Source: Archaeoglobus neptunius
GTDB lineage: Archaea > Halobacteriota > Archaeoglobi > Archaeoglobales > Archaeoglobaceae
Direction of reading: 5' to 3'
DNA: 60,359 bases
NCBI RefSeq assembly: GCF_016757965.1
Contig: NZ_JAEKIW010000016.1
Location: 1 to 60,359, forward strand
A model generated the notes under the pieces. The model was not told the DNA's origin. It did not search any database and saw only the letters and a program-made list of their open reading frames with translations. The translations under genes were made by a program, and so were the position numbers. Of this stretch, positions 29,400 through 38,301 are shown piece by piece; the stretch's first letter is position 1; each line of letters starts with the position of its first letter.

Positions 29400-30406
29400 T
29401 TATTTTACATTCCAAGGACTATGTGGGCCCCAGACACCAAACATGACCTCAACACCATGGTAGAGGCACCACTTCTCTGTCCCGAGCCAGGCATAGAAGT
29501 AGTTCATCACACACTCTCCTTGACACTGATCTGTGCACTCTCCGTCTTCAGCATCAAAATTGTGTGAAATTTCATGTTGCACAGCAGCATCGTTTGGATA
29601 ATTTGGGAACCAGGGCGGCCTACTTTCCGCAACGACAGAATGGTACAATCTATCCGAGCTATGGCTTTGTAGTAATCACTGTACCCAACCCACCCTATTA
29701 CCACGGTATTGTAAGTTCCGTGATCAATATCACTCTCGAAATCTTAAAGTGAGGGCGAAAGATTGTAATCTACCCCGCTCGCATCCCAGCAGTTGTAGCA
29801 GCCACCACGTATGATGTCAACAAAAAAATCACGCTCAAAAGGCTCAGTTCCGGAAACAACGTCATCCCAGTGTACACCTCCTGCCGGAGCGTGCTGATCG
29901 TCGCTGGCTGAGTACGTGATCACAAATATCTTCCCGTTCTCATCAGCGTAGGGTGGGCTAAGGGGGTTACCGGGACCGCTGCATCCCTTACCGTCTGCAA
30001 AGCAGGCTCTGTCAAACACGAGCTCTCCTTCAGCAGCGAGTTTTCTCATCTCATCGACACTCAGCTTCTTACCTGTCTCTTCTGGAAGGTAGCCGTATTT
30101 TTTCTTGAACTCTTCTTTGAGCTTTTCGTCAAGTTTGGATGCCATTTCACCTCCGATGATCAGATTATAGTCGGGGTGCAGCTTTTTCAGCAACTTCAGA
30201 ATTTTCCGCTACGAGTATCTTGGCTTTCATGTCGTTTTAAGTTCATCAACGGTCAACTCACCATCTTCGAGAGCTTTTTCCACAGTTTCACGGATCTTGT
30301 CATCTTTAATTTCGCCAATCTCAATCAGATCGGATCTGTTCTCGAATGTTGCCGAAACCACGGCTATGGACACTGCAAGCAATACGATCATTGCCTTTTT
30401 TATCAT
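29400..30406 (-). pseudogene. Decayed secreted metzincin-like zinc protease
   Basis: ATG 30406 opens a signal peptide (MIKKAMIVLLAVSIAVVSA) and ~58 residues to a TGA; the sequence resumes in other frames (DMKAKILVA; then RKILKLLKKLHPDYN from ~30210). That frame continues to a TAA at 29744, beyond which the same frame reads sensibly (DFESDIDHGTYNTVV, then IGWVGYSDYYKAIAR). A last shift near 29655 leads to HEISHNFDAEDGECTDQC and VMNYFYAWLGTEKWC. HExxHxxxxxD fits a metzincin with Asp as third zinc ligand. In all, about three frameshifts and one stop. Reassembled length is ~330 residues with a prepro region. It lies beside the caspase-like genes and may once have belonged to that system. Confidence 0.6.
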
Positions 30407-30573: not shown

Positions 30574-30987
30574 GTGAAATTATTTCAGGATACAGAGGCT
30601 TATGAGGAGCTCACAGGATTTTTGGCTTGTGAATTTCGGACAGAATTCACGACGGACATATACGAACCTGACGAAAGTCCAGACTGGGGTCCCGAAGAGG
30701 AGATGCTCACGTCTGGGCGTCGTTTCGAGAAGAAGGAGTTTAGGGAGCCGTATTCTGCTACGGAAATGGGGCTCATTTACGTAAATCCAGCCGGACCTGG
30801 AGGAGTGTCTGATCCAAAAAGGTCCGCTGAGGAAATACGGTACATTTTTGCCAGGATGGGAATAAACGATGAGGAGACAGTTGCGTTAATAGGAGGAGGT
30901 CACGCATATCTCACACCCAGCTTTTCGGTTCAAAAAATTAGGGCAATACAGCAACGATTCGTCCGTCAACTTCTCCCGAATCTTTAA
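30574..30987 (+). pseudogene. Remnant of catalase-peroxidase (katG)
   Basis: A 137-codon frame whose residues 28-110 match an internal block of Kat[14 protein letters not shown], then [13 protein letters not shown] with the Tyr of the KatG Met-Tyr-Trp cross-link region, then [17 protein letters not shown], ending at the proximal-haem-ligand region (normally GGHTFGKTHG). After His110 the similarity stops (AYLTPSFS), and the frame runs 50 bp into the 3' end of the opposite gene. Full KatG is over 700 residues, so this is a short internal fragment with no function as a peroxidase. It is a sign of insertion or rearrangement in the island. Confidence 0.8.
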
Positions 30988-31822
30988 TCCCGTCATACTC
31001 AACCGCGTATTTACCATGAAGCCTGTAAACCGGCAGTATGCCGTCTGGAGTGATTGTGTAAACGAGCGAGACATTGGTGATCGTTAGCTTCGTGAAGGCG
31101 ATGTTGCTTAAATACCAGTCATCCGCCTTGACATCCCCCTTAACCCTTTCAGCCAGCTTTTCCGGGATGTCCACGACCGGAAGAACTTTATACCTGCCTT
31201 TGGGCTGAACATCCTTTAGGAGCAACCCTTCGACACTTCTAACCCCAGCTTTGTCGAATTTCACAAACACGCCGATGTTGGATGAAAAGCCGTTAAAGGT
31301 TCTGGCGAAGAAAGTTCCGTGCTCCTTTTTGATTTCTTTATATTCATAATCGAGCAATCCCGAGCTTTTGAGAAAAGTTGTTGCCTCCCTCGGGGTTTTG
31401 AAGATCACCCTGAAATATCCAGTTGATGCGTAGTACTCGAAATTCAATTTATCGTCATTGTAAAGATAGGCCTTCGTAACTTTGTTGTAGTACAGTTTGT
31501 CTGCAGACACACCAAAAGATTTAGCCATCCTGAACACTTCATCCGGTTTCTGGTAAACTTCGTAGCTGTACACTTCGATCGTCTCTGGCACCTTCAGATT
31601 TTTGACGTTTTCAACCAGCTCAATCGTGAACGGGAAAGGGTTTTTGTCCTTCACCTCTATCACACTTCCGTTCGGAAGATTGTAGTAAACCACCGGTCTC
31701 AGTATCGCAGTTTTTTCTGGATCGATAAGGTTGAACTGTTCGGCATCTGGAAAGGGCAGAAAGTGGAAGGTCAAAATAGCCAGTGCAACAACCACAATTG
31801 CAACGATAATGTGCTTCTGCAT
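30938..31822 (-). CDS. Membrane-anchored propeptide-like protein of the protease island
   Basis: 294 residues. N-terminal membrane anchor ([18 protein letters not shown], ~5-22), then an extracytoplasmic part with a PepSY/propeptide-like alpha-beta pattern, including a segment near 120-160 ([17 protein letters not shown]) and a C-terminal block ([15 protein letters not shown], then [10 protein letters not shown]). It begins 4 bases after the stop of the frameshifted caspase-like gene with GGGTGAGAAC upstream, so they form an operon. The protein resembles in outline the 33176 gene product. Function: perhaps inhibitor or chaperone of the peptidase; no firm family call. Confidence 0.65.
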
Positions 31823-31826
31823 GTTC

Positions 31827-32592
31827 TCACCCTACCCAGCCCGTAACGATTATCTTTTCCCCATCAACCGGCACTCTTTCTAAGCTGTACAGATAGTTGT
31901 TTTCAAGTACATCTGAGTTCTCGGCTATGATCCTCGCCCTGTTATTGTTATGCACACCGTCCGCCTTGAGAAATGTGCTGAAAAACGCATTCTCGACCTT
32001 CTCTCTACTATAACCACCTGTCCCCGTCAATCTGTAAGCCAATTCCGGAAAATCGGCGTTACTGATTGTTGCGGTGCTGGCGAAACCTAAAACCATGTGT
32101 ATTCCCTGCAAAGATTGGAGCCACTCCGTAACATACTCATCCTCCAGAATGCTGCACTGTATTATGAAGGTCCACACACTGTATCCAAAACCATCTGGAC
32201 TGGAATAACCCAGTCTAATATCATCTGGAACTGCACAGCCTTTGTCTGCAAATCCTATTGCACTCTTTTTTGTACCATCTGGATAAACTACAACGCAACC
32301 ATGCCCCAGCACTAAGGACAACTCTGTCCAGTCGGCGTAATTGTTGTCTCTCCCACCATTTTCTTCCTCAGTCCACATATATGGTCCGACTTTTGGGTAA
32401 TCTCTTAAAAAGTGTTGAATCCATCCAGTTTCATCTGATATTATCTCTACGAACTGTCTTATACTGTTGAACCATACATCATTTGGGTCTTCTGAGAAAG
32501 ACATCGCCGCTCCAACATCGTAAGCTAATGTCGTTACCTATATTACATAAGATTGCCAACATTGCGATGCATACCTTAACTCTCCCGGTCAC
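31827..32592 (-). pseudogene. Caspase-fold (DUF6345-like) exported peptidase, apparently frameshifted
   Basis: GTG 32592 with GGTGGTGA just upstream opens a signal-peptide-like frame (KVCIAMLAILCNIGN) that stops after 37 codons. A different frame resumes near 32535 (TLAYDVGAAM) and runs to 31827; its first ATG is 32504. The main frame, 225 codons, has LSLVLGHG (His68 from ATG 32504) and TFIIQCSIL (Cys117), a His/Cys dyad as in clan CD peptidases, followed by LQSLQGIHMVLGFAS. This layout recalls DUF6345 proteins of archaea. So an exported caspase-like peptidase, broken by a one-base-type shift after the leader, or using frameshifting. The 45-bp repeat at 32637 precedes it. Confidence 0.55.
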
Positions 32593-32636
32593 GTCACCAC
32601 CCTGATACCTGTTAACTTTATGCTATTTAAAATTAT

Positions 32637-32681
32637 CGTTAAGCTTTTATTTTAACATTAAGTAAAATGTTGAACGTTAAG
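32637..32681 (-). repeat. 45-bp island repeat, copy 1
   Basis: Plus strand reads CGTTAAGCTTTTATTTTAAC, then ATTAAGTAAAATGTTGAACG, then TTAAG. A second GCTGAACGTTAAG follows at 32688-32700, and then CGATCTGCTTAA. On the minus strand the repeat is followed by CGATAATTTTAAATAG, a BRE/TATA-like element, then the caspase-like gene. One base (T for C) differs from the other two copies. Confidence 0.9.
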
Positions 32682-32802
32682 GTGTTAGCTGAACGTTAAG
32701 CGATCTGCTTAACAGCGGTAATCTACATCCGCAGGATAGCAGTTCAACTCCCTGAACAGACGGAGCACTTACATTATGCTAAAAAGTTACCACAACCAAA
32801 AA

Positions 32803-33186
32803 TCAGCCGCAGGCCTGCTCGAACAGCACATCCACATCACTTCCATTTAACCCGTAGCAGTACCATCCCTCCCTGAGAACAGCAATAACGCCCATCTTCC
32901 CGCTCTTGAATATCAGAACCTTTTTGACGTCTCCTGACTTGTACTCTACCTCAATCCACCCCGTGTTGTTCTTCAGCCACTTGTAGTACTCGTCATCTAT
33001 CATCAGCGTCAGAATGCCGAGATCTTTCGACAGTGCATCATCGACGAAGTTCAGGACGACATCCTTTTTAGGATCACACAGGTTCGATGACACCTTCACG
33101 TTTTCGGATCCGTGCATTACTACCAGTGCTATTAAGCCAAACGCCAAGCTCAGGCCAACCAAAATTAAAAGATGTTTAGCCTTCAC
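32803..33186 (-). CDS. Small membrane-anchored protein of the protease island
   Basis: 127 residues from GTG 33186; that codon overlaps the end of the previous gene and has GAGGAGG 8-10 bases upstream, so the longer frame to 33345 is rejected. One N-terminal helix (HLLILVGLSLAFGLIALVVMH) then an extracytoplasmic domain with two Cys (SSNLCDPKKDVVLNF and GWYCYGLNGSD) plus a final Cys (EQACG). No family is recognised. Last gene of the second repeat-headed operon. Confidence 0.65.
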   Translation of the reverse strand: MKAKHLLILVGLSLAFGLIALVVMHGSENVKVSSNLCDPKKDVVLNFVDDALSKDLGILTLMIDDEYYKWLKNNTGWIEVEYKSGDVKKVLIFKSGKMGVIAVLREGWYCYGLNGSDVDVLFEQACG

Positions 33187-33904
33187 CGCTCGTGACCTCC
33201 TCGAGTTCCGAGATCGGTACGGCTGGAACGATCTTTCCGATTTCCACTCCCTCATGCACGCATCTGATGGCGTAAGCCGGGTAGATGTATGTTCTGTCAC
33301 CCTCCGGCAGCGGGACGAAGTAGACGAGTTCGATTGACTTAACATTGCACCCCTTCAACTCCTTTACTGCGACATCTCTGTCCAGTATCCCGACCTTTCC
33401 CACAGCCTTCACGTTCCACAACTGGGTTATCACTCCACTCACACCGTTACCGCTGAAGTACACCCTAACCTTTGCCCCCGGACCGAAGAGCTTGATTCCT
33501 TTGTAGTACATCTGGAAGTTCACGTGTTTGTTTGTTATACACTTCCTGATGGTTCCGTTTCTGTACGCGAAAATCTTTCCGTCCTCTGCGATTCCACTGA
33601 ACTCGTAGCTGAGTTTCGGCTCCAGCTTTAGTTTGGCCAGATAGTTTCTGGCAGCAGATGCGTAATCAACCTCGTCGAAGTCTTCGCACTCGAACGCATC
33701 TTTGGAGAAGTACTTCAGGTACCCCTGTTTGTATTCAAAAACATCTGACTTCTCTACGCCAAGCTTATCGGAAAGTTCTTCAGCGCTGATATCTGGTGGT
33801 AGTATTACCAAAACTTCCATTTCTTTGCTTTCGCCCCAATAATTTCCAGCAGCAACCACTACAAGCAGCAAGCAGAGCGCAAGTCCGGCAACGAACTTCC
33901 TCAT
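33176..33904 (-). CDS. Exported propeptide-like protein of the protease island
   Basis: 242 residues with a signal peptide (KFVAGLALCLLLVVVAAGN). The mature part includes YASAARNYLAKLKLEP, then VNFQMYYKGIKLFGPGAKVR, VYFSGNGVSGV, and EGDRTYIYPAYAIRC. This looks like the propeptide or PepSY-type module that precedes the catalytic domain in secreted archaeal peptidases. Here it stands alone, downstream of a small exported protein, which suggests that pro- and catalytic domains are made as separate chains. GGTGG upstream of the ATG 33904. Confidence 0.6.
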   Translation of the reverse strand: MRKFVAGLALCLLLVVVAAGNYWGESKEMEVLVILPPDISAEELSDKLGVEKSDVFEYKQGYLKYFSKDAFECEDFDEVDYASAARNYLAKLKLEPKLSYEFSGIAEDGKIFAYRNGTIRKCITNKHVNFQMYYKGIKLFGPGAKVRVYFSGNGVSGVITQLWNVKAVGKVGILDRDVAVKELKGCNVKSIELVYFVPLPEGDRTYIYPAYAIRCVHEGVEIGKIVPAVPISELEEVTSGEG

Positions 33905-33913
33905 TCTACCACC

Positions 33914-34192
33914 TCAGCACTCCCAGTAGCCATACACTAAGCAGGAAGGCGGATTTTCATCGTCTCCAACACTTCCGAATCCCGGGAGGTAGTCGTTCTG
34001 GTTGCTGCATGTGGATATGTAAGCTGCTCTAACGTTGCTTCCGTGTCCGTTGTATTCCTCCACCCACTCTACTCCTACTTCTCTGTTATTTGTGTCGTCT
34101 GCCATCGCAGTTGTCAAAATCGCTGGTACAACTAATATGACGATCCAAATCTTCGGTCTTTTGACCGTATCACTACCCAGATATATGTTCAC
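33914..34192 (-). CDS. Small exported Cys-containing protein, N-terminal piece of a DUF6345-like domain
   Basis: 92 residues from GTG 34192. Hydrophobic leader (KIWIVILVVPAILTTAMADD), then ~60 residues: REVGVEWVEEYNGHGSN and AAYISTCSNQNDYLPGFGS, ending SCLVYGYWEC. The VGVEWV start recalls the N-terminus of DUF6345 peptidases, but the catalytic His/Cys part is missing. It is therefore either a truncated peptidase or a small secreted peptide with three Cys. The repeat at 34213 lies 20 nt upstream. The predicted TATA (TTTATATG near 34200-34207) is closer to GTG than usual, so the exact start is uncertain. Confidence 0.5.
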   Translation of the reverse strand: MNIYLGSDTVKRPKIWIVILVVPAILTTAMADDTNNREVGVEWVEEYNGHGSNVRAAYISTCSNQNDYLPGFGSVGDDENPPSCLVYGYWEC

Positions 34193-34212
34193 AATGTAGC
34201 ATATAAATCTAT

Positions 34213-34257
34213 CGTTAAGCTTTTATTTTAACATTAAGTAAAATGCTGAACGTTAAG
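34213..34257 (-). repeat. 45-bp island repeat, copy 2
   Basis: Begins CGTTAAGCTTTTATTTTAAC and ends GCTGAACGTTAAG; the identity with copy 3 is complete over 45 bases. The following 12 bases CGATCTGCTTAA are shared with copy 1 and form TTAAGC-GATCT-GCTTAA, an inverted repeat. On the minus strand it is followed by CGATAGATTTATATG, a BRE/TATA-like element. Confidence 0.9.
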
Positions 34258-34438
34258 CGATCTGCTTAATCACTATGGCACTCACATGCTCTGGGAGTTC
34301 AAGGATCTCCGAAACTGCTGCTTCGTCAAAAGCACCAATCCACACAACCTCTAATAACTTTACATCCGAACAAATCTGCAACGTGAGGAAGCTACCAACA
34401 AGGATATACTGAGAATATTGAAGCTATGGCTCAAATGA

Positions 34439-34576
34439 AAGAGAAGAGCTGATAAATTTGGTTCAGTTGATGCAGTTGTAAGATGGCATAATGAAGTTAA
34501 GCCCCACAGAAGTCTGGATGGGATGAGCCATGCAATGTGTTCTGGTATAAGCTTTCATAGATTATGTGGTTTGTAA
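34439..34576 (+). pseudogene. DDE transposase remnant (3' end)
   Basis: A 45-codon open stretch (KRRADKFGSVDAVVR, then WHNEVKPHRSLDGMS) matches the conserved C-terminal block of IS481/IS3-like integrases (YN-x-x-RPH-x-SL). It is blocked by TGA upstream (34436) and ends at TAA. No terminal repeats were seen. The stretch 34258-34648 holds only this remnant and no intact gene. Confidence 0.55.
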
Positions 34577-34648
34577 GGAGGTGGTTTGGTGAAGAGAAAG
34601 TGTAAAATTCAATCAGACCCCGTCCGCATACAGTTCGTGCTCGTATAT

Positions 34649-35089
34649 TCACGGTAACACACCTCCCAAGGCAATATACACGAAACTCGAAATCGTATTC
34701 GCGAGAATCCAAGAGACGGACAAGGTCTTTTTATCCACGCTGAGAAATGCTAATGACGAAAGACTGGCAAGAACTAATCCTTCAACAGCGCAGATAAACC
34801 CCAGCAGAAAGTAGGAAGTCAAATCTGCTGGTACTGAAAACGTCTTGTAAAGCGTGTATGGAATTCTGGATGCAAACACAAGGATGAGAAGCGAGAGAAA
34901 ATCAGTTAACACGAGTAATATTGTGATGGGTGGAAGTCTTCTATCGTTGAATTCCGCATTAAACAGCCGCGAATATACCAGCAGAAAGAGTGTGTTGACA
35001 ACGTAGGATGACGATGGTAGTAAAGCCACGTAAACAGCAAATGGAAGCGGGATTGCAGGGATTAAAAAGTTGAAGAGCATAAATTTCAC
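34649..35089 (-). CDS. Integral membrane protein, four helices, island operon 3
   Basis: 146 residues (GTG 35089 or ATG 35080). Four hydrophobic stretches: FLIPAIPLPFAVYVALL, LPPITILLVLTDFLSLLILV, SYFLLGFICAVEGLVLASL, and ILANTISSFVYIALGG. No family recognised. Organisation (~145 residues, four helices) is like the 35762 gene product in the same operon. Possibly a membrane partner or exporter component for the secreted proteins. Confidence 0.6.
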   Translation of the reverse strand: MKFMLFNFLIPAIPLPFAVYVALLPSSSYVVNTLFLLVYSRLFNAEFNDRRLPPITILLVLTDFLSLLILVFASRIPYTLYKTFSVPADLTSYFLLGFICAVEGLVLASLSSLAFLSVDKKTLSVSWILANTISSFVYIALGGVLP

Positions 35090-35129
35090 TTAAATGTATA
35101 TGTTGCAGTTCCCAACCTCCCTGTCCAAA

Positions 35130-35765
35130 TCACAGAACCATGCGGCGTTGTTCGCTTCGACTCTTGCCCAGACACTCCTCTATGCACTTTGCACTGTAGC
35201 ATTTCTTTGCTACCAATTCCCCCTCAACCACCGTCCAGCCTGCCACAACTTCTACATCCACAACATCCTGATAGCACTCCCACCATTTGACCTTCTTCTT
35301 CCAAATTCCCCTCTCCTCCCACCACTCATTGTAGCCAACGAGCCTGATCTTGATTGATGTGTTGCAGGTGGAGTAGATGTAGGTGGTGTAGGCACTCCCT
35401 CCTCCGAACCTCGGACGGAGTAGGAAGGCGTTGCTGAGATTTATCGGCTTCTCTGAGAGTGCGTACGCCTCAAAATCACCCTCTATTTTAAGCATTCTCC
35501 CGTATTTGGTGTCAACGATCGACCAGTTCTTAGGAGCGTTGACGACGTCGGCAAACTCCAACACCCTGCCATCTCTGGCCGGAATCGGAACGTAGAGTGT
35601 GCAGTTTTTCTCGCCTACTTCAACTTTGTACACGTACACTTTGAAGATTGCTCTGGCAGATATCAATTCGTCCGCCTCTGATGCGTAGTAGCTCACCGCA
35701 AAGATTGTAGCGAAGGCGAGGGCGGAGAGTACGGACATTACAGCGTACTTTCTCCTCGAGCTCAT
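35130..35765 (-). CDS. Membrane-anchored exported protein of island operon 3
   Basis: About 211 residues from ATG 35765, which overlaps the preceding stop by 4 bases (ATGA); the longer frame to 35876 is rejected. One N-terminal helix (AVMSVLSALAFATIFAVSYY), then a beta-rich outer domain (IFKVYVYKVEVGEKNCTLYV, then GRMLKIEGDFEAYALS), and a Cys-containing tail (KKCYSAKCIEECLGKS) that could be disulphide-bonded or bind metal. No family is recognised. Confidence 0.65.
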   Translation of the reverse strand: MSSRRKYAVMSVLSALAFATIFAVSYYASEADELISARAIFKVYVYKVEVGEKNCTLYVPIPARDGRVLEFADVVNAPKNWSIVDTKYGRMLKIEGDFEAYALSEKPINLSNAFLLRPRFGGGSAYTTYIYSTCNTSIKIRLVGYNEWWEERGIWKKKVKWWECYQDVVDVEVVAGWTVVEGELVAKKCYSAKCIEECLGKSRSEQRRMVL

Positions 35766-36193
35766 TCTATCATCTTCGGATGTGCGATGAACACCTCGCC
35801 GTGAAGCTGCAGGGCGATTACGTCGAGGATCAAGCCCGCGATGACCCAGAAGATGATGACTTCCAAGTGGTTGCACTTTTTGTAGGCGAGGCTGGCGGCG
35901 ACGCCAAGGATCGCGTTCACTGGGATGCCAAGAAATGTTGCAGCCACCTTTTCCGAAAGCACCCGGCCGAGCGCTATGAGCGGGTAGGTAGTCGCAACCA
36001 TGACTGCGAAGTGAACGAAGATTGTTACCGCGAGGACAGCGGGCAAGCGTTTTGTTTGTAGCTCGACATTTCTGATGGCTGCGAAGGCTGTGATAAACGA
36101 TGTGTAGAGGAGCGCTATCGAGATGGCGTAGATCACCACGCCCGCTCCGCCAATCAGATTAAGGAAGTTGGATAAGTATATCTCGAGCAGCAT
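35762..36193 (-). CDS. Integral membrane protein, four helices, island operon 3
   Basis: 143 residues; starts two bases after the peptidase stop. Helices: FLNLIGGAGVVIYAISIALL, LPAVLAVTIFVHFAVMVAT, FLGIPVNAILGVAASLAY, and VIIFWVIAGLILDVIALQL. No family recognised. Transcribed with the peptidase upstream and the anchored protein downstream. Confidence 0.65.
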   Translation of the reverse strand: MLLEIYLSNFLNLIGGAGVVIYAISIALLYTSFITAFAAIRNVELQTKRLPAVLAVTIFVHFAVMVATTYPLIALGRVLSEKVAATFLGIPVNAILGVAASLAYKKCNHLEVIIFWVIAGLILDVIALQLHGEVFIAHPKMIE

Positions 36194-36195
36194 GG

Positions 36196-37464
36196 TCAGA
36201 TGTAGATGTTACAGTAACCTTTTTCGCTGTCGAGGTTGCAGTCCTTCTTCCAAACAGCCGTGTTCGCTGCGATCCTCGCCTCGTGGGCTGTTTTCTGATA
36301 GGCTACGTTAACGTTCCCTGTCGCCCAGTCCCAGAACCTGCCGGCCCAGTCTGCACAGGCCGAATACCCCCACCAGTACTGGATGTCCGCTATCTCGCCA
36401 GATGCACCTATAACACATCCCACTCCGTTCTGAGCAAGCCTGTCCCCAAAGCTGTTTCCACCAGCGTAGCATGCTGAGACCACGAAGAGTCTTGTCTGCC
36501 TGTTGTTTGCTATGTCATTCGTGCAGTATGTACTGCTGCTTCCAGTCCCTCCCAGAGCTATGCAGTAGCGGTTTCCATGTCCGGAGTAGTAAACTGCTTC
36601 AAAATGGCCAAGAATGTAGTTCACGGTGCTGTCACTACTTACTACATCGTAATCATCTGCATCGTCATCCCACGACCAAGGATACCAGTAACTATACGAA
36701 GTCTCCATCGAAGCTTCAGCAGCGTCAATGTCGTCCTTGCACATTTCGTCGTCAGCTCTGAAAACAGCCCCCTGATCATTGTCTATTCCTTTCGAATCTG
36801 CCTTGGACTTAATTTCTCCCACCCAAACCTCGCGCTCAAGCTTTCCGAAATCCACCGTCGTTTTATACTTCTCCGCCATAATCCTCTTCATTTCATCGCT
36901 CACGATTTTTCCACTAACAGCATCCACAGCATCACCGTCGGTAAACCACACGACACCGAAGCCGGGAACTATGTAGAGCTTCGCATCTCTCGCTTTTGCG
37001 ATTTTCAGAACCTCTTCCTTCTTCAGTTTAACGACTTGTTCAACCTTTACTTCTTCGACGGGTATCTTCCTGTAAGCTGCGATCTTGCCCGTCATCCTGT
37101 TCACAACAACGTAGCAGTCCTCGCCGAAAACGGCTATTCCATTAACCCGTCTCTCAAATTGAATGTCGTAGTCGTAAGGATTTTCAGTAACCCTGACGAG
37201 CGTGTAAGCTTCACCACACAGCTCTTCAGCCATCTCAATCGCCTCATCCTTCGTTATGGATGGTTTGCCATCCAGATTCTCGTTGATGGCTGTGTGGTTG
37301 AAGTAGAGGATCGTCTGGTTGGTTCTCATATCGACAAGCATGTAGCCGTGCTCGTTCGTGATAGCTTTAACGGGAATTCCTGCGTAAAAGTCCGTTTTTG
37401 TTGCCAGTGCATTTGGCACGGCTACGAGCGCCAGTATAATCAGTCCCAACTTCGCTTTATTCAT
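36196..37464 (-). CDS. Secreted clan CD (caspase/gingipain-like) cysteine peptidase with propeptide
   Basis: About 422 residues from ATG 37464. Signal peptide (KLGLIILALVAVPNALA), a PepSY/YcdB-like pro region (~30-200; SITKDEAIEMAEELCG, then GIAVFGEDCYVVVNRMTGKI), and a catalytic part with VYYSGHGN (H296) and LFVVSACYAGGNSFG (C332), the His-Gly...Ala-Cys layout of clan CD. The last ~50 residues (KTAHEARIAANTAVW) have no clear function. Twelve or so Cys occur, including several that could form disulphides. A TATA (AATTTAAGT) beside the repeat at 37499 fits a leaderless start. Target unknown: self-processing, nutrient or competitor proteins. Confidence 0.75.
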   Translation of the reverse strand: MNKAKLGLIILALVAVPNALATKTDFYAGIPVKAITNEHGYMLVDMRTNQTILYFNHTAINENLDGKPSITKDEAIEMAEELCGEAYTLVRVTENPYDYDIQFERRVNGIAVFGEDCYVVVNRMTGKIAAYRKIPVEEVKVEQVVKLKKEEVLKIAKARDAKLYIVPGFGVVWFTDGDAVDAVSGKIVSDEMKRIMAEKYKTTVDFGKLEREVWVGEIKSKADSKGIDNDQGAVFRADDEMCKDDIDAAEASMETSYSYWYPWSWDDDADDYDVVSSDSTVNYILGHFEAVYYSGHGNRYCIALGGTGSSSTYCTNDIANNRQTRLFVVSACYAGGNSFGDRLAQNGVGCVIGASGEIADIQYWWGYSACADWAGRFWDWATGNVNVAYQKTAHEARIAANTAVWKKDCNLDSEKGYCNIYI

Positions 37465-37498
37465 GATCACACATAGCATAGCGAGAACTTAAATTTTT

Positions 37499-37543
37499 CG
37501 TTAAGCTTTTATTTTAACATTAAGTAAAATGCTGAACGTTAAG
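37499..37543 (-). repeat. 45-bp island repeat, copy 3
   Basis: Same 45 bases as copy 2 (ends GCTGAACGTTAAG). On the minus strand it is followed by CGAAAAATTTAAG, a BRE/TATA-like element, then the peptidase gene. It lies 24 bases after the regulator stop codon. Confidence 0.9.
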
Positions 37544-37563
37544 CGAATTACTTAACGTTCAGC
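37531..37563. promoter_or_regulatory. Perfect 13-bp inverted repeat (candidate regulator site or terminator)
   Basis: GCTGAACGTTAAG at 37531-37543 and CTTAACGTTCAGC at 37551-37563 with 7 bases between. One arm is the end of repeat copy 3. It lies between the regulator stop and the peptidase promoter, so it may be an operator, a terminator for the regulator, or both. GCTGAACGTTAAG occurs at 32688 and 34245 too. Confidence 0.6.
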
Positions 37564-37566
37564 TAA

Positions 37567-38301
37567 TCACTTAATTTCCCGCGATATCGACCTGTAATAT
37601 TCAAAGAGCCTCAAGCCCCATCTCACAGCATCTTCCGTCCTGCAAATCAGGATGTTCTGGGCATCGTAAACCCCGTCAAGCCTGTACAAGGCTAAAGCAA
37701 AGCCTCTTTCAGCCACAACGAAAGCGAGTCTGACGTTATCGCAGACGTACATTTTTCCCCGCTTTAGGAACTCGTTCAGCTTGGCTTTAGCTCTCTCAAC
37801 CACTACATTGAAAACGTCCTTGGTTAAGACCAGTTCCACATTTCTGCCATCAGTCAGACTTGCGAAAAACTCTGGAAACCTCTCGTGATATACTGACGAC
37901 AGACCCTTGACCCAGTCTGAGTCAGCTAAAATTCCCTCTACTTCCCCGAGCTCGTAGGGATTCTCTCTCACGTTTATCCGGCATCCGTCGAGCATGTAGA
38001 TGTTCTCAAATATCTCCGTCGGGATCGCTGATAACTCGTGTTCAATGAAAAATCTTCCTGCAGCCTTGACAACCCGTTCAAACTTCTCCAATCTCGTGCC
38101 GAATTCAAATAAGATCTGTCCCAGCTTGGACGTCCTGTAAACTCCACTTCTCATCCTTTCCACGAGTCCGAGCTCCAGTAGGGGCTTGAGGTGGTGCAGC
38201 GTCGCCTGCTTTGATTTACCAATCAGCTCCGACAGCTCGCCAAGGTTTCTGGGATTTCTCAGCAACCACAGCATCTCGATTTTTGGTGGTCCAAGGGGCA
38301 T
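37567..38301 (-). CDS. Winged-helix transcriptional regulator (archaeal DUF1724-type)
   Basis: About 244 residues from ATG 38301. N-terminal ArsR-like winged helix (PPKIEMLWLLRNPRNLGELS, then ATLHHLKPLLELGLVERM), then a ~150-residue C-terminal domain (NVELVLTKDVFNVVVERAKA) as in many archaeal regulators of the methanogen/Archaeoglobus type. The frame opens upstream to 38349, but TATA-like AAATTATAAG at ~38323-38332 fits a leaderless ATG 38301. It is the only regulator in the island and lies next to a repeat copy, so it is the best candidate to bind the 45-bp repeats. Confidence 0.75.
   Translation of the reverse strand: MPLGPPKIEMLWLLRNPRNLGELSELIGKSKQATLHHLKPLLELGLVERMRSGVYRTSKLGQILFEFGTRLEKFERVVKAAGRFFIEHELSAIPTEIFENIYMLDGCRINVRENPYELGEVEGILADSDWVKGLSSVYHERFPEFFASLTDGRNVELVLTKDVFNVVVERAKAKLNEFLKRGKMYVCDNVRLAFVVAERGFALALYRLDGVYDAQNILICRTEDAVRWGLRLFEYYRSISREIK

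Follow-up and report, generated by a model that had tools for sequence, protein, structure and literature searches.

We found that three promoters in the analysed window, a 60,359-nucleotide stretch of the Archaeoglobus neptunius genome, each carry 12-bp near-palindromes (CTKAACGTTMAG) that are arranged as a ladder with a pitch of exactly 19 bp, that the repeat is confined to this locus in the genome, that it is conserved across species in register with the TATA element, and that it is linked to the gene of a FilR1-type winged-helix regulator. On comparative sequence grounds it is highly probable that this adjacent protein and the ladders make up one regulon, counting activator and repressor versions together. 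We further propose, with a probability of about 0.6, that the ladders are bound cooperatively by FilR1-type dimers, which would jointly activate three operons headed by genes of secreted caspase-like proteins or by relics of such genes.

The initial annotation had described three copies of a 45-base repeat in the same direction, one base different in the first, each directly 5′ of a BRE/TATA-like element that is followed by a minus-strand gene or gene start, and the sequence bears out both the copies and their placement. The 45-mer, CGTTAAGCTTTTATTTTAACATTAAGTAAAATG[T/C]TGAACGTTAAG, starts at 32637, 34213 and 37499, all on the plus strand, and copy 1 departs from copies 2 and 3 by a single base change. 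The repeat had also been read as a regulatory site in itself; it holds up as an upstream element, but the functional unit appears to be the 19-bp-pitch palindrome ladder, of which the 45-mer is only the TATA-proximal portion. Clear rungs number four at copy 1, three at copy 2, where an additional half-site lies farther upstream, and four at copy 3 (Table 1). Scored as letters of 12 matching the consensus CTKAACGTTMAG, the rungs reach 12, 11, 10 and 10 in ladder 1, 12, 10 and 9 in ladder 2, and 12, 12, 10 and 9 in ladder 3. The last rung of each ladder abuts or overlaps the BRE/TATA, and ladder 3 starts directly after the stop codon of the regulator gene. By inspection, the TATA of ladder 3 lies ~30 bp 5′ of the ATG at 37464, which suggests a leaderless transcript and makes this ATG the likely start of the 427-aa gene.

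Occurrence of the repeat at many unrelated genes or inside IS elements would have spoken against a local regulatory site, but neither was seen. A search of the whole 2,115,826-base genome with a 33-bp core (≤3 mismatches) returned only three places, all at this locus, and the control returned no matches. Outside the locus, the 60-kb window held no further site pairs at the 19-bp pitch. Matches to CTTAACGTTCAG, those at the locus included, numbered 8 forward and 8 reverse genome-wide, compared with control counts of 3 and 5. Since the lone matches are near chance once the locus is set aside, and the five that were inspected all lie inside genes, we do not call a wider regulon.

Table 1. Coordinates of the ladders, the regulator gene, the genes behind the ladders and the frame-disrupted genes. 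Positions are those of the window except where a contig of a relative is named; percentages are identities to the G007 ortholog.
Feature	Coordinates	Strand	Remarks
Operator ladder 1	32632..32700	-	rungs 32689-32700, 32670-32681, 32651-32662, 32632-32643; runs into BRE/TATA CGATAATTTTAAATAG
Operator ladder 2	34208..34257	-	rungs 34246-34257, 34227-34238, 34208-34219; then TATA ATTTATATG
Operator ladder 3	37494..37562	-	rungs 37551-37562, 37532-37543, 37513-37524, 37494-37505; then BRE/TATA CGAAAAATTTAAG
FilR1-type regulator	37567..38301	-	N-terminal ArsR-like winged helix and FilR1_middle domain
427-aa secreted caspase-like peptidase (predicted)	36196..37479	-	His301/Cys337; YcdB/PepSY-like N-terminal region
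143-aa predicted membrane protein, caspase-like operon	35762..36193	-	ortholog in same G007 operon (44%)
248-aa ORF, caspase-like operon	35130..35876	-	ortholog in G007 (36%)
146-aa predicted membrane protein, caspase-like operon	34649..35089	-	ortholog in G007 (70%)
92-aa secreted protein	33914..34192	-	GHG...STCS motif kept; counterpart disrupted in G007
242-aa secreted protein	33176..33904	-	propeptide (FTP)-like resemblance weak (E = 0.16); ladder-preceded ortholog in G007 (65%)
Third gene of 92-aa/242-aa operon	32803..33187	-	~128 aa from GTG near 33187; ortholog in G007 (66%)
225-aa DUF6345 protein	31827..32504	-	caspase-like GHG...QCS motif; frame out of register with signal-peptide frame after ladder 1
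294-aa secreted or membrane protein	30938..31822	-	downstream of 225-aa gene
Frame-disrupted 225-aa gene, G000	31827-32620	-	out of frame with signal peptide
Frame-disrupted 427-aa gene, G004	L066 3895-4080		signal peptide out of frame
Frame-disrupted 92-aa gene, G007	L012 3505-3740		

Searching relatives, a check put forward with the initial annotation, recovered the ladder at promoters of three further Archaeoglobus genomes. A set of 36 related genomes was searched with a two-site pattern at the 19-bp pitch, allowing ≤2 mismatches. Matches fell in G000 (the window genome), G004 (the MAG S5B4_HD70, JAPDIW010000017), G006 and G007 (Archaeoglobus sp. UBA230, DAVR01000050), all of the same genus, and one weak pair of sites was matched in G012; the reversed-pattern control gave one match in G004, two in G041 and otherwise nothing. 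Ladders were present in four of the eight genomes searched for Archaeoglobus, at eight promoters altogether, five of them outside G000 (three in G007 and one each in G006 and G004, where contig ends restrict the view). All eight are anchored beside BRE/TATA in a fixed register, one with a 1-bp shift, and so have the layout of an upstream-activated promoter, in which repeated or palindromic sites lie directly 5′ of BRE/TATA in fixed register. In ungapped promoter alignments between species, anchored on the core, identity was 0.47-0.95 across the stretch that begins 60 bp before the anchor and ends with the TATA, and 0.22-0.32 farther upstream. Because the 427-aa proteins of G000 and G007 share only 65% identity, we read the conservation of ladder and TATA as selection, not recent common origin. 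In G007 the orthologous 242-aa/128-aa and 427-aa operons stand in a different order, each with its own ladder in unchanged register with BRE/TATA, and the third G007 ladder precedes three paralogs of ~400 aa. A 409-aa-type gene follows the G006 ladder, and the one in G004 lies before a 427-aa gene (83% identical). That the ladder was kept in related species despite this gene reordering argues for a real local control circuit.

A regulon under the winged-helix protein encoded at 37567 had been proposed at the outset, and comparison between genomes supports it with one gap, in G004. The protein has the FilR1-type order of an ArsR-like winged helix (HTH_5, E = 1.6e-7, residues 29-64) followed by a FilR1_middle domain (PF08350, E = 9.8e-27, residues 136-254), both above their curated cut-offs; no receiver (REC) domain was among its Pfam/NCBIfam matches, and it stops at the middle domain. 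Its gene likely starts at the ATG at 38301 and is leaderless, and its own promoter lacks a ladder, making autoregulation through a ladder site unlikely. Close orthologs (58-66% identity) were found only in G006 and G007, and in each of the three genomes with a close ortholog (G000, G006 and G007) the regulator gene is immediately followed by a ladder, the gene behind which is the 427-aa caspase-like gene in G000, the 92-aa/242-aa operon in G007 and the 409-aa type in G006. These three regulators share the recognition region SKQA.L.HLKPLL, a helix-turn-helix segment, which differs in the homologs of 44-45% identity that have no ladder nearby. We found no ladder near FilR1-type homologs of lower identity (at most about 45%), and saw no ladder of another sequence near the distant homologs of G010, G011, G017, G020 and the paralog in the window genome itself.

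Two relatives depart from this pairing. G005 (a single contig of 2,178,400 bases) is A. fulgidus-like and matches A. fulgidus DSM 4304 in size. Its best regulator match is truncated (162/260 residues), and its caspase-like promoter retains the core CGAAAAATTTAAG with a single degraded rung, so that regulator loss and ladder loss coincide there. For G004, no close regulator ortholog was found in the assembly despite the ladder before its caspase-like gene. The contig starts ~3.7 kb upstream, leaving an assembly gap as a possible reason; the regulator's upstream neighbour in the window, used to locate the regulator's place, had no match in G004.

The initial annotation had placed a caspase-like peptidase, a small DUF6345-like protein with partners and a second caspase-like peptidase with membrane proteins behind the three copies. 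Three operons do lie there, but decay has reached some of their lead genes, with the 225-aa gene out of frame with its signal peptide and the 92-aa gene relic-like. The 225-aa protein proved to be a DUF6345 protein (PF19872, E = 1.9e-9, passing the cut-off), but the small 92-aa protein fails the DUF6345 cut-off (E = 0.14). In the latter, GHG and STCS lie close together, and what is left is probably the remnant of a DUF6345/caspase-like gene. It is the motif YYSGHG...VVSACYAG that makes the 427-aa protein caspase-like, since it has no significant Pfam caspase match. The clan CD His-Gly/Ala-Cys dyad motifs, YSGHG and ACYA, are invariant in six homologs (from G000, G004, G005 and G007), consistent with a predicted peptidase; the sole hint of Pfam C14 (E = 0.039) came from a G004 paralog. 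The N-terminal region of the 427-aa protein matches DUF4901 just under the cut-off (E = 2.4e-5), and a pairwise comparison of this part with the 242-aa protein was not significant (E = 0.82). The AlphaFold model of the 427-aa protein, built from six sequences, has a mean pLDDT of 41 and is too poor to use, and the model of the 242-aa protein has a pLDDT of 38. Within the operons, the true start of the 248-aa ORF is likely internal, at about 35766, and the third gene of the 92-aa/242-aa operon is also listed as a 180-aa ORF reaching 33345. A sequence similar by eye to the 294-aa protein occurs in G004 (L066, about 762-1483), split over two frames.

We also observed a ~400-aa secreted family (L012 10530-14286; L092; L093) that gave no significant Pfam match; three members stand in tandem behind a G007 ladder, and the family is present in G004, G005 and G006 and absent from G000. 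On the minus strand of G005 (L078 7993-10464) there are two caspase-like paralogs with membrane-protein partners, in the first of which the N-terminal frame has been lost.

Several archaeal regulators offer comparisons. FilR1 of Methanosaeta harundinacea, which binds promoters and activates its targets in a reporter assay in E. coli (PMC3991700), shares its ArsR-like N-terminal winged helix and its middle domain (DUF1724) with the 37567 protein, but it also has a receiver domain, belongs to a two-component pair of which none is seen beside the 37567 gene, and is concerned with methanogenesis genes, whereas the neighbours here are secreted caspase-like peptidase operons. At the fla promoter of Methanococcus maripaludis, the winged-helix activator EarA has four tandem sites directly 5′ of the BRE, a weak element to which it has been suggested to recruit TFB (PMC5512572). 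This layout is that of the ladder promoters, although the EarA sites are six bp long and not 12-bp near-palindromes at a fixed 19-bp pitch, the two proteins belong to different families by their domain matches, and the ladder serves three promoters. TFB-RF1 of Pyrococcus furiosus and Ptr2 of Methanocaldococcus jannaschii likewise use palindromic or multiple sites just 5′ of the BRE and recruit TFB or TBP (PMC5937170, PMC5512572); their sequences (TCTG-N5-CAGA for TFB-RF1) and targets differ from those of the ladder. From Archaeoglobus itself, the A. fulgidus heat-shock regulator HSR1 is also a winged-helix protein with a palindromic site, CTAAC-N5-GTTAG (PMC9133787), but the sequence and arrangement of that site are unlike the ladder, and HSR1 is autoregulatory and shares its operon with a small heat-shock gene, whereas the promoter of the 37567 regulator has no ladder. 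The open-access literature yielded no published operator for FilR1-type regulators that lack a receiver domain, and nothing on DUF6345. We suggest that the ladder regulon is apparently an undescribed case of a known and fairly conventional archaeal local control circuit.

In our model, dimers of the 37567 protein would sit on the CTKAACGTTMAG rungs at the 19-bp pitch and load cooperatively along the ladder down to the rung that overlaps the BRE. Upon binding of a signal by the FilR1_middle sensor domain, the stacked dimers would help TFB/TBP settle on the core promoter, which would place three operons, comprising secreted caspase-like peptidase genes or relics with exported and membrane partners, under joint control. 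The same regulator and ladder could instead act in repression, with a filament nucleated on the rungs covering the BRE and blocking TFB until a signal releases it. We regard this as possible but the less probable mode. The last rung, CTTAACGA..., covers part of the BRE and extends up to the TATA, a geometry that would suit a repressor as well, and CTTAACGA is intact and in register at five of the eight promoters; HSR1 is itself thought to repress by promoter blocking (PMC9133787). However, the rungs that match best are found one to two pitches farther upstream than those near the BRE, most promoters have their weakest rung next to the TATA, and the arrangement follows that of EarA, with four sites directly 5′ of the BRE, and of Ptr2 and TFB-RF1 (PMC5512572, PMC5937170). 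On account of this layout, we favour activation by about 2 to 1 over repression. The broken state of some target genes sits oddly with a maintained regulon, and the G004 ladder without a close regulator ortholog also speaks against the model. That same ladder is what speaks for another transcription factor as the binder, the FilR1-type neighbour then being incidental, since the gene directly before it encodes a MarR-like winged-helix protein with a membrane anchor. We consider this unlikely given the FilR1-type gene beside a ladder in every genome with a close ortholog, and we reject the G004 membrane protein as the binder in G000, which carries three ladders and has no ortholog of it (best match 36%, E 8e-6).

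Two further accounts were weighed. Recent duplication of the promoter and leader by recombination, the repeat itself not being selected, could explain why even spacer letters are nearly identical within genomes (0.93-1.0 near the core) and why the G007 427-aa leader is of the 92-aa-gene type, unlike those of G000 and G004. Yet the ladder stays in register between species whose flanks are random, and changes within rungs mostly keep to the alphabet CTKAAYRTTMA; duplication accounts for copy number, not for conservation, and is very improbable as the main cause. Least credible, to the point of being negligible, is an origin as a mobile-element or CRISPR-like repeat, or a role as terminator hairpin of the regulator gene. 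There is a decayed integrase-core fragment beside ladder 2 (about 34415-34560, plus strand; PF13683, E = 0.01), and past the regulator stop codon a 25-bp inverted repeat is present in ladder 3, but a close inverted repeat occurs at ladder 3 only and the repeat always abuts a TATA. With all three copies at the locus, none elsewhere in the genome and no match to the two-site ladder core in viral contigs, we rejected a mobile or CRISPR-like origin. The fragment by ladder 2 is an rve_3-like transposase remnant, VRWHNEVKPHRSLDGM.

Activation by the FilR1-type protein, our preferred reading, and repression by it can be told apart directly in vitro with archaeal TBP, TFB and RNA polymerase, given the fixed 19-bp pitch and the BRE overlap. 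The locus supplies a specific site, an adjacent candidate binder and eight natural promoter variants, and the ladder offers a starting point for learning when Archaeoglobus produces these secreted caspase-like proteins, its predicted peptidases.

Frame disruption at or near the junction of signal peptide and mature protein was seen in three ladder-led genes (Table 1), where assembly errors are possible. The G007 427-aa leader matches the 92-aa-gene leader over 121 bp at 72% to G000 and over 123 bp at 83% within G007, and the 427-aa leaders of G000 and G004 are alike (77% over 193 bp), so that on at least one occasion the promoter has probably travelled together with the signal-peptide sequence. 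Because leaders appear swapped between 427-aa and 92-aa genes, we tentatively raise the idea that ladder, core promoter and signal peptide may form an exchangeable expression-and-export cassette before fast-evolving secreted peptidase genes. Swaps, probably by ladder recombination, would leave frameshifts at the junction, and the locus would be a site of regulated diversification for secreted caspase-like proteins. Elsewhere in the window, at 29400-30406 on the minus strand, a secreted protein is apparently split over several frames, and its last piece carries HEISHNFDAED, which is zinc-metallopeptidase-like (Reprolysin_5, E = 0.0064). Relatives of the pieces neighbouring this fragment lie at the end of a G007 contig (L012 14367-14959).
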